Below, piece after piece: positions 46,467 through 47,968 of a stretch of DNA of 64,000 nt. A model generated the notes under the pieces. That model did not search any database and was not told the origin of the DNA. It saw only the letters and a list, made by a program, of their open reading frames with translations. Position 1 is the first letter of the stretch. Every line of letters begins with the position of its first letter. The translations under genes and the position numbers were made by a program. Source of the DNA: Niabella drilacis (GTDB lineage: Bacteria > Bacteroidota > Bacteroidia > Chitinophagales > Chitinophagaceae); the NCBI RefSeq assembly GCF_900101395.1, contig NZ_FMZO01000004.1:301009-365008 (forward strand), written 5' to 3'.

Positions 46467-46769
46467 ATGACAGCTATAAAAAAATCGCCTTCCCTCCTGT
46501 TTTGCATCCTGATGGATATTATTGGGTGTTTGTCCTTTACCATTCCTGGCGTGGGTGAATTTGCCGACGTTATCTGGGCGCCTGTTTCGGCCATTATACT
46601 GGCCAGGACCTTTGGAGGTGCCAAAGGGATGTTTGGCGGGGTCTTTAATTTTATAGAAGAGATCCTACCGGGTACCGATATCGTTCCCACGTTTACCATT
46701 ATGTGGCTGCTGACCAACAAAGCCCCGTTTTTTGGTAAAAAAACAGCGATCCCGGTAAAGGCACGGTAA
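46467..46769 (+). CDS. Small conserved inner-membrane protein
   Basis: A 100-residue protein with two to three hydrophobic segments (about 8-28, 34-52 and 66-86). The segments LMDIIGCLSFTIPGVGEFADVIWAPVSA and GGVFNFIEEILPGTDIVPTFTIMW look conserved in pattern to small membrane proteins that I recall from other Bacteroidota, but no function is known to me. It stands alone between the PfkB gene and the asd leader. Confidence 0.7.
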   Translation: MTAIKKSPSLLFCILMDIIGCLSFTIPGVGEFADVIWAPVSAIILARTFGGAKGMFGGVFNFIEEILPGTDIVPTFTIMWLLTNKAPFFGKKTAIPVKAR

Positions 46770-46800
46770 AATTATTTTTGAAAATTATATATTTCCCTTA

Positions 46801-46808
46801 TACCTTTG
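46801..46808 (+). promoter_or_regulatory. Promoter of the asd leader (TTTG-N20-TACCTTTG)
   Basis: TACCTTTG is preceded by TTTG at 46777-46780 with a 20-nt spacer, a full Bacteroidota -33/-7 promoter. It ends 7 nt before the leader ATG, so the leader transcript is nearly leaderless. Confidence 0.75.
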
Positions 46809-46815
46809 CGATCCG

Positions 46816-46875
46816 ATGATGATAAAGAAACATACAAAAACTACCAAGAAGCAGTCCCTGGCGGAGGGTTTGTAG
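46816..46875 (+). CDS. asd leader peptide, Lys/Thr-rich
   Basis: A 19-codon open frame encodes MMIKKHTKTTKKQSLAEGL and stops at TAG 46873-46875. Eleven of the first twelve residues are Met, Ile, Lys or Thr, all products of the aspartate family. The downstream gene asd makes the common precursor of exactly these amino acids. Codons 4-12 (46825-46851) would be the stalling region. The peptide overlaps one hairpin and is followed by a competing terminator, as in thr and his operon leaders. It is too short to have a product function and acts as a sensor of charged tRNA. Confidence 0.8.
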   Translation: MMIKKHTKTTKKQSLAEGL

Positions 46876-46935
46876 TTTTGTACACAAAACATAAATTTTT
46901 AACAGACCTTCCGTAAAAGCGGAAGGTTTTTTTTT
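46837..46935 (+). promoter_or_regulatory. Ribosome-mediated transcription attenuator of asd
   Basis: Segment 1 (46837-46844, AAAACTAC) pairs with GTAGTTTT (46872-46879), with an inner CCCT/AGGG helix. Segment 2 (46861-46873) can instead pair with 46902-46914 over 13 contiguous bp, including three G-U wobbles. This antiterminator excludes the terminator stem 46906-46913 / 46920-46927, which is followed by nine T residues. Ribosome stalling on Lys/Thr codons would free segment 2 and let transcription continue into asd. Efficient translation or no translation would favour termination. Confidence 0.8.
46906..46935 (+). terminator. Intrinsic terminator in the asd leader
   Basis: Stem ACCTTCCG/CGGAAGGT (8 bp), loop TAAAAG, then T9. 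It stands 25 nt before the asd ATG on the same strand, with a promoter but no complete gene upstream, so it is regulatory. Confidence 0.9.
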
Positions 46936-46960
46936 AAACGATAAACAGTAAAAAACAACA

Positions 46961-47968
46961 ATGAGAGTAGCCGTAGTAGGCGCCACTGGTCTGGTAGGCA
47001 CTAAAATGTTACAGGTCTTGGCCGAAAGAAATTTTCCCGTATCGGAACTGATCCCCGTTGCTTCTGCAAAAAGTGTGGGAAAGGAAGTGGAGTTTAAAGG
47101 CACTAAATATAAAGTGATAGGTATGGAAGAGGCCATTGCTGCAAAGCCCAATGTGGCCCTGTTTTCAGCAGGGGGCAGCACTTCAACCGAGTGGGCACCG
47201 AAGTTTGCGGCTGCCGGCATTACGGTGGTAGACAATTCCTCCGCCTGGCGCATGGACCCCAAAGTACCGCTGGTAGTGCCCGAGATCAATGCGGATGTGC
47301 TTACCAGCAACGACAAGATCATTGCCAACCCCAATTGCTCCACCATACAGATGGTAGTGGCCCTGGCACCGCTGCATAAAGCCTACAAGGCACAACGCAT
47401 CGTGGTTTCTACCTACCAGAGTGTTACCGGAACCGGCGTTAAGGCGGTAAGCCAGCTCAGGGGAGAGCGGCAGAAAGAAGTTGCCGGTAGCGAGGAAGGC
47501 TATGAGATGGCGTATAAATACCCGATTGACCTGAACGTGATCCCCCAGATTGACGTGTTCCTGGATAATGGATACACCAAGGAGGAAATGAAGATGGTGA
47601 ATGAAACCAAAAAGATCATGAGGGACGATTCGATCCGGGTGACGGCTACCACCGTAAGGATCCCGGTAATGGGCGGCCACAGCGAAGCCGTAAATATTGA
47701 ATTTGAAAAGGATTTTGACCTGGCAGAAGTGCGGCATTTGCTGGAAACCGCCCCGGGCGTGGTGGTTACAGACGACCTGCCCAACCAGCATTACCCCATG
47801 CCGATGGATGCGCATGAAAAAGACGAGGTGTTTGTAGGGCGGATCCGCCGGGATGAATCGCAGCCCAATACCCTGAATCTTTGGGTGGTGAGCGACAATT
47901 TGCGCAAAGGCGCAGCCACAAACGCCGTACAGGTGGCTGAATACCTGGCCGCAAATAATCTTATCTGA
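46961..47968 (+). CDS. asd: Aspartate-semialdehyde dehydrogenase
   Basis: Converts aspartyl phosphate to aspartate semialdehyde with NADPH, the branch point to lysine, diaminopimelate, threonine, methionine and isoleucine. The 335 residues contain the nucleotide motif GATGLVG (7-13), the catalytic C126 in ANPNCSTIQ and H240 in GGHSEAVN. The only gene upstream on its transcript is the 19-codon leader, so expression is predicted to depend on attenuation. The gene is followed by a 100-nt repeat spacer and uppS. Because diaminopimelate is needed for peptidoglycan, its position beside uppS and bamA fits an envelope theme. Confidence 0.97.
   Translation: MRVAVVGATGLVGTKMLQVLAERNFPVSELIPVASAKSVGKEVEFKGTKYKVIGMEEAIAAKPNVALFSAGGSTSTEWAPKFAAAGITVVDNSSAWRMDPKVPLVVPEINADVLTSNDKIIANPNCSTIQMVVALAPLHKAYKAQRIVVSTYQSVTGTGVKAVSQLRGERQKEVAGSEEGYEMAYKYPIDLNVIPQIDVFLDNGYTKEEMKMVNETKKIMRDDSIRVTATTVRIPVMGGHSEAVNIEFEKDFDLAEVRHLLETAPGVVVTDDLPNQHYPMPMDAHEKDEVFVGRIRRDESQPNTLNLWVVSDNLRKGAATNAVQVAEYLAANNLI

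Follow-up and report, generated by a model that had tools for sequence, protein, structure and literature searches.

What governs asd in Niabella drilacis, and which amino acid would the RNA in front of this gene report on? In the window, as we call the whole 64 000-nt stretch of DNA analysed here (positions count from its first nucleotide, and all features described lie on the + strand), asd is preceded by a promoter, a very short reading frame and a terminator, an arrangement that the initial annotation took for a ribosome-mediated attenuator sensing aspartate-family amino acids. Conservation and covariation in relatives back such an attenuation of asd and its four-segment logic. The earlier reading is thus partly supported: the attenuator mechanism stands, and the signal is to be narrowed to lysine. 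Our best explanation, which we hold to be very probable, is that asd follows the supply of charged tRNA-Lys through ribosome-mediated transcription attenuation, with threonine perhaps as a second input.

The controlled gene (46961–47968) encodes an aspartate-semialdehyde dehydrogenase of 335 aa, required for lysine, threonine and methionine synthesis, that scores above the curated cut-offs of NCBIfam TIGR01296 asd_B and NF011456; a plasmid collection search gave only partial asd matches. The promoter (46777–46808) consists of TTTG (−33 type, 46777–46780), 20 nt and TACCTTTG (−7 box, 46801–46808), as had been claimed, while a sigma-70 scan returned nothing useful. An ATG at 46816 opens a leader peptide gene of 19 codons (46816–46875), reading MMIKKHTKTTKKQSLAEGL and a stop codon, with a predicted 5′ UTR of about 3 nt. 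Residues 1–12 comprise two Met, one Ile, five Lys, three Thr and one His, so that the earlier codon and residue counts are exact in translation. The Lys-Lys codons AAG AAG at 46846–46851 fall on Lys columns in relatives and are the main predicted stall site.

Four RNA segments follow from pairing, folding and covariation. Segment 1 (46833–46844) is the 5′ arm of a protector hairpin, 1:2, whose 3′ arm (46872–46882) overlaps the end of segment 2; the helix has the 8 bp already described (46837–46844/46872–46879) and, past one bulge, three further pairs that extend it to 46833/46882. Segment 2 (46861–46873), the 5′ arm of the antiterminator, makes 13 contiguous pairs, three of them G-U, with segment 3 (46902–46914), which also serves as the 5′ arm of the terminator; all the pairs earlier proposed for this helix exist. 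Segment 4 with its T9 tract (46919–46935) is the 3′ arm of the intrinsic terminator, found where it had been placed, with an 8-bp stem (46906–46913/46920–46927; 10 pairs when two G-U end pairs are counted), the loop AAAA and nine T at 46927–46935. The window therefore holds the components of the class: a leader ORF (its translation predicted) with end-product codons, a terminator, the 2:3 and 1:2 helices, and the characteristic placement of codons and stop. The 128-nt leader folds with z −3.7 relative to shuffles (1 of 200 as good) and the terminator alone with z −4.7 (0 of 200). In 2000 dinucleotide shuffles of the window leader alone, the Lys count was reached 34 times, and the counts of Thr (238), Met (723) and Ile (1221) were unremarkable. 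That the asd element is more than chance is settled, at the level of sequence, by comparison with relatives.

Among 80 named asd loci, 26 have before asd a short leader ORF built like that in the window and then a terminator; the genera represented include Niabella, Niastella, Flavihumibacter, Limnovirga and Sediminibacterium. The 26 loci were chosen by eye for the shared leader motif, excluding six that have a terminator and some ORF (L036, L040, L041, L042, L075 and L077), and were combined with the window in a covariance model, R1. One of them (L006) apparently comes from the same genome as a locus outside the order (L275), and R1 is not blind to that family. On the 81 sources R1 gave 27 matches at E<1e-6 and the next at E=0.014, partly by construction, as the same sequences built the model. 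The best R1 match had E<1e-5 in 172 of 294 genomes of the family (counted by hand from the table), a figure we prefer to the 206 of 294 at E≤0.01, which includes false positives; 88 of the 294 were without a match at E≤0.01 (stricter filters). Fetching 140 loci by R1 irrespective of gene yielded 122 before asd, 18 (16 distinct) before dapA and none elsewhere, the downstream gene having been checked in the fetched loci only.

In 248 genomes from the order, 45 of 46 matches at E≤1e-4 lie in the same family, and the remaining one (L325) resembles a gene end with its terminator. Weak R1 matches in the class (E 1e-4 to 1e-3) comprise asd elements, leaders of other kinds and plain terminators. A broader model, R2, whose input alignment (A4) includes one wrong-strand row (L211), gave E<1e-6 matches confined to the family (11 genomes) when run on 395 phylum genomes; of 19 weaker R2 loci inspected, four have matched leaders (two at thrA, one Trp, one at ilvD), the others being plain terminators or unclear cases. 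For the comparisons that follow, R1 was run on 241 loci and the window: 190 matched, 21 weak ones were excluded, two (L009 and L121) that the terminator rule had missed were dropped, and 165 copies were thinned to 93 with 0.80 as the alignment-score limit.

Alignment of the Chitinophagaceae asd upstream regions shows the leader and its Lys codons kept and, at sequence level, helices that covary, 1:2 and 3:4 strongly and 2:3 weakly. Across the 93 copies, 1:2 and 3:4 together have 86.3% of cells paired, 152 two-sided changed cells (49.6 when shuffled, at most 60 when slid), and two-sided changes in 16 of 19 pairs; their covariation score is 0.323, against 0.173 in shuffles and no more than 0.087 in slid versions. 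Helix 3:4 by itself is 96.2% paired, with two-sided changes present. Helix 2:3 is paired in 80.5% of cells versus at most 65.5% when slid, and scores 0.174 (0.135 shuffled, at most 0.131 slid). Its 31 two-sided cells compare with 16.4 in shuffles and with 34 and 32 at slides of −3 and −2, a test of low power because the segments are nearly invariant.

Folding before segment 4 is made gives 2:3 in 79 of the 93 copies (70.4 with segment 3 swapped among copies). The consensus 1:2 helix forms in 68 (39.7 when swapped), and 25 copies form fewer than five of its 10 pairs; in the window the 1:2 helix has a shifted register and none of the consensus pairs formed in folding. At equilibrium, with a stalled ribosome and segment 4 present, the terminator conformer has −25.9 versus −21.7 kcal/mol for 2:3, and in untranslated RNA 2:3 (−31.1) is slightly preferred over 1:2 plus 3:4 (−29.0). 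Such equilibrium energies do not give a switch, so a folding order set during transcription would be required; 1:2 (−12.8) is available before segment 3 exists, and 2:3 (−19.2) before segment 4 exists.

The second Lys of the Lys-Lys pair lies 11–18 nt before segment 2 in all the copies having both Lys, 68 of the 93. The footprint of a ribosome extends about 12–15 nt ahead of the A site. Given this similarity, a ribosome stalled at Lys-Lys would cover segment 1 and leave segment 2 free. Relative to segment 2, the stop codon falls at −6 to −2 or at +6 to +12 in 89 of 92 copies, which would put a finishing ribosome over segment 2.

In 79 of 90 copies a TAnnTTYG box stands 0–18 nt ahead of the leader ATG, which agrees with the near-leaderless sensor peptide proposed earlier; about 4 of 90 have it in shuffles of the upstream 26 nt, a control that took a single start for each leader, set no limit on distance and so matches the observed count inexactly. 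The distance is 7–9 nt in 57 of the 79, for a predicted 5′ UTR of 3–5 nt. Passages of a study of F. psychrophilum (PMC9723704) place a TAnnTTTG box at −12 to −5, from which we predict a transcription start in the window near 46813, three bases before the ATG. Leaderless mRNAs are otherwise rare in Bacteroidota, to judge from the figures quoted in passages of two papers, 5.5% in F. psychrophilum (PMC9723704) and, for 5′ UTRs of <10 nt, about 3.7% in B. thetaiotaomicron (PMC7366714).

From this layout we infer how the leader would be translated, where a ribosome would stall, in which order the RNA would fold and how asd would respond to lysine. RNA polymerase would start near 46813, and a ribosome would load on an AUG only a few bases from the 5′ end. 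If lysine is sufficient, this ribosome would reach the stop codon at 46873 and cover segment 2; the 3:4 terminator would form and asd would be off. When Lys-tRNA is short, the ribosome would stall on the Lys codons, mainly the AAG AAG pair, covering segment 1 and ending about at the start of segment 2. The free segment 2 would then pair with segment 3 as it emerges, the terminator would come too late, and asd would be transcribed. If no ribosome had loaded, 1:2 would form first and should keep segment 2 from segment 3. At asd in Chitinophagaceae, the Thr codons may supply a second input.

Which amino acid the leader reads was approached through codons 2–13 of 82 non-redundant asd leaders (983 codons), with dinucleotide shuffles as the null, which addresses the possibility that A-rich DNA alone yields Lys, Thr, Ile, Met and Asn. 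Lys is the strongest residue by far (330/983, null 166, z 23). Thr is above the null (175/983, null 119, z 6), as is His (83/983, null 45, z 7), the latter tied to the CAT of helix 1; Asn is below it (55/983, null 113). Ile and Met were considered as signals and set aside, Ile being near the null (99/983, null 79, a modest excess) and the Met excess (66/983, null 24) consisting mostly of extra ATG at variable first positions. An aspartate-family signal, as first proposed, is therefore too broad: A-initial codons encode K, N, T, I and M (also S and R), so an A-rich leader mimics the family. Its Lys part, and to a lesser degree its Thr part, hold up in the comparison, and its Ile and Met parts fare poorly.

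The lysine excess depends on the frame: Lys makes up 33.6% of codons in frame 0 and 5.3 and 14.0% in the two alternatives. For the 17 of 167 loci that offered several candidate frames, we took the frame with the most Lys + Thr, which favours the Lys reading. When the leader was instead read, blind to composition, from the first ATG downstream of the promoter box (82 of the 93 copies), Lys amounted to 34.2% in the 74 asd leaders and to 38.5% in the 8 from dapA, and 81 of the 82 had at least three. Four columns carry Lys in 78/93, 84/92, 79/90 and 79/90 copies (84–91%), with both AAA and AAG used; the positions of the Lys-Lys stall site have 79/90 each. Thr occupies its one freely varying column in 46 of 88 copies; some other Thr codons are dictated by the 1:2 helix (the ACA within CATACA). 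Because the conserved AAACATACAAA core is also under constraint at the RNA level, not all of the K-H-T-K conservation reflects codon selection.

In 16 genomes from five genera the element recurs, as a second strong match, in front of the lysine gene dapA; the one such gene tested scored above the NCBIfam dapA cut-off. The dapA leaders have Lys at 37 of 96 codons (null 18.6, z 7.8) and Thr at 8 of 96 (null 5.3; 46 of 400 shuffles have as many), and one set of them reads MNSIKKYSSKKNISQREDA, without Thr. We also considered whether each dapA element arose as a copy of its genome's asd element. This idea is unsupported: of the 14 dapA elements that could be compared with the asd element of their own genome, only 2 had it as the top-ranked match. 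In N. drilacis itself, no leader was seen in the 470 nt upstream of dapA, and R1 has no match there.

Outside the order, asd elements occur in four families of the class (f42, f49, f58 and f62), where 13 asd leaders average 5.1 Lys and 0.4 Thr, and nine have no Thr; this set excludes the frameshifted L282, counts the similar L283 and L284 once, and includes L275, which resembles L006 of R1. Two loci were read by eye, L211 (no ORF called) and L205 (wrong ORF called), giving 5 and 3 Lys; L195 has 2 Lys. In L282 (G874) the A run of the asd leader apparently has one A fewer than in genus mates and the frame is shifted, a real loss or an assembly error. From these comparisons, lysine is the constant residue and threonine an addition at asd in Chitinophagaceae.

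Threonine might weigh more heavily than this. A joint signal of Lys and Thr, or of the whole aspartate family, with a stall at either codon opening asd, overlaps our best explanation, and we give it an appreciable chance while thinking it the less likely case. It would account for the three Thr beside five Lys in the window leader, for the Thr excess over the shuffled null at asd, and for the 14 genomes with both elements, in which Thr in the first 13 residues is more frequent at asd than at dapA in 11, equal in three and less frequent in none, although these 14 pairs stem from five genera and are not independent. Against it speak the asd leaders of the four other families, mostly without Thr, the helix that fixes some of the Thr codons, and a separate Thr/Ile leader at the organism's own thrA.

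That leader is one of several in the N. drilacis genome. It reads MQYIFQNIKPSLAFGNETTTTITTTP and a stop codon (G000:C40, ~115993–116073; L326), 171 nt before the start of thrA, a fused aspartokinase-homoserine dehydrogenase gene whose fragment is too short to pass the NCBIfam cut-off; inspection by eye found no clear T-rich terminator after it, and resembling Thr/Ile leaders occur at thrA in three genus mates. The hisG gene (G000:C29, ~427400–427690; L138, L254) has the leader MKILVHTHHHVTDLPV and a stop codon, followed by a hairpin (GGCTTACAA/TTGTAAGCC) with a T run, an R1 match of 41 bits; of 26 hisG loci in this genome and its relatives, 23 have a leader with at least three His. At a trpE-like gene (G000:C30, L334), a Trp leader, MNYSNNNNWWWHGNSFGVL and a stop codon, directly follows a TATATTTG box and is succeeded by CCCCGGTAGTACCGGGG and a T run. 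At ilvD (G000:C40, L331), an Ile/Val-rich leader (NVIAVIVIVIT) is followed by a hairpin with a T run. NCBIfam places hisG and ilvD above their cut-offs and the trpE-like protein (best match trpE) below, at 400.6 of 517.7 bits. With leaders matched to the product of their own gene in the same genome, attenuation is the natural reading at asd too.

Other families of the phylum provide further observations: a Phe-rich leader (FFF/YF) before prephenate dehydratase (L318), an Asn-rich one (NNN) before asparagine synthase (L319), a WWW leader (L350), a Thr/Ile/Val leader at an ilvD-like gene (L353), and Thr/Ile leaders before aspartokinases further afield. An Asn attenuator would be another unusual specificity. 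At L315 (G685:C10) the short ORF MNNNAKHILNTINSNMMCCMMCI, which contains runs of Met and of Cys, stands before a terminator and may be a Met/Cys leader.

Three explanations would dispense with lysine codons as the signal. If the leader served general translation capacity, any stall before segment 2 would open asd, and the geometry alone indeed needs no Lys, since a ribosome held anywhere over codons 8–12 would free segment 2; yet Lys is kept at four columns, in common with dapA, and each leader in the one genome matches its own gene's product, which makes this explanation improbable. A sensor acting without the peptide, with lysine or another ligand bound, by RNA or protein, at the conserved AAACAUACAAA/GUAUG hairpin and the short ORF incidental, is more doubtful still. 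The 1:2 helix does keep much sequence beyond what pairing needs, and other bacteria regulate their lysine genes by lysine riboswitches, as a passage of PMC1262725 has it. However, an Rfam search of the 64-kb window with 4227 families, among them L-box, T-box and the enterobacterial Thr leader, gave no match at gathering score. The Lys codons, moreover, persist where the RNA sequence has changed, AAA and AAG exchange at the Lys columns, the stop position is tied to segment 2, and product-matched leaders stand at four other genes of the genome.

Least credible, with hardly any probability left to it, is a plain terminator of the upstream gene combined with a chance ORF. A same-strand ORF of 100 aa does end at 46769, which leaves 137 nt up to the terminator stem, but the promoter box, leader and helices are conserved, and all 140 loci fetched with R1 precede asd or dapA; conservation and covariation refute this candidate. 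The evidence leaves attenuation by lysine codons as the reading we prefer.

The mechanism class is already known, for other amino acids. The enterobacterial thrL-thrABC attenuator has Thr and Ile codons before thrA. The asd element resembles it in its end-product codons, in its alternative antiterminator and terminator and in its aspartate-pathway gene, and differs in having mainly Lys codons and in standing before asd (dapA in some relatives). In a lysine riboswitch the ligand binds the RNA directly and there is no leader peptide. Both systems would control lysine genes via leader RNA; the asd element differs in its leader peptide and in lacking an Rfam match. The L-box riboswitch is named as lysine control in PMC1262725, where a review-type passage assigns lysine genes to riboswitches and His, Thr and Phe genes to attenuators.

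Within the phylum, passages on F. psychrophilum report 'strong clues' that leader peptides attenuate amino-acid operons, with pheA and hisG among the conserved 5′ elements (PMC9723704); asd, thrA and lysine have no occurrence in the main text of that paper. A histidine leader peptide at hisS/hisZ in Bacilli (PMC2965389) was likewise predicted by comparison and lies outside Proteobacteria and Actinobacteria, beyond which, a passage there states, no leader-peptide system had been known before; it differs from ours in amino acid, gene and phylum. Titles and abstract beginnings among the matches listed in a search of the open-access literature held no lysine leader-peptide attenuator and no asd or dapA attenuation in Bacteroidota.

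More tentatively, at somewhat less than even confidence, we suggest that the asd leader belongs to a Bacteroidota set of sensor peptides, one per amino-acid pathway, that start at the very 5′ end of the mRNA or a few bases from it: Lys at asd/dapA, Thr/Ile at thrA, His at hisG, Trp at trpE, Ile/Val at ilvD and probably Phe at pheA and Asn at asnB. Lys would be a new specificity for ribosome-mediated attenuation. The 5′-terminal start would replace the missing Shine-Dalgarno sequence, allowing immediate ribosome loading and continued coupling to RNA polymerase, and at asd, a shared branch point, the peptide would read both end products, Lys and Thr, together.

A lysine-codon attenuator, if true, adds lysine to the amino acids that are measured by the ribosome. 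It would offer a testable, conserved system for Bacteroidota, where start signals and regulation differ from those of model bacteria, and leaders that start almost at the 5′ end would be a natural probe of initiation without Shine-Dalgarno. For the pathway itself, the element suggests how the gene of a branch-point enzyme may be tied to one end product while thrA has a sensor of its own.
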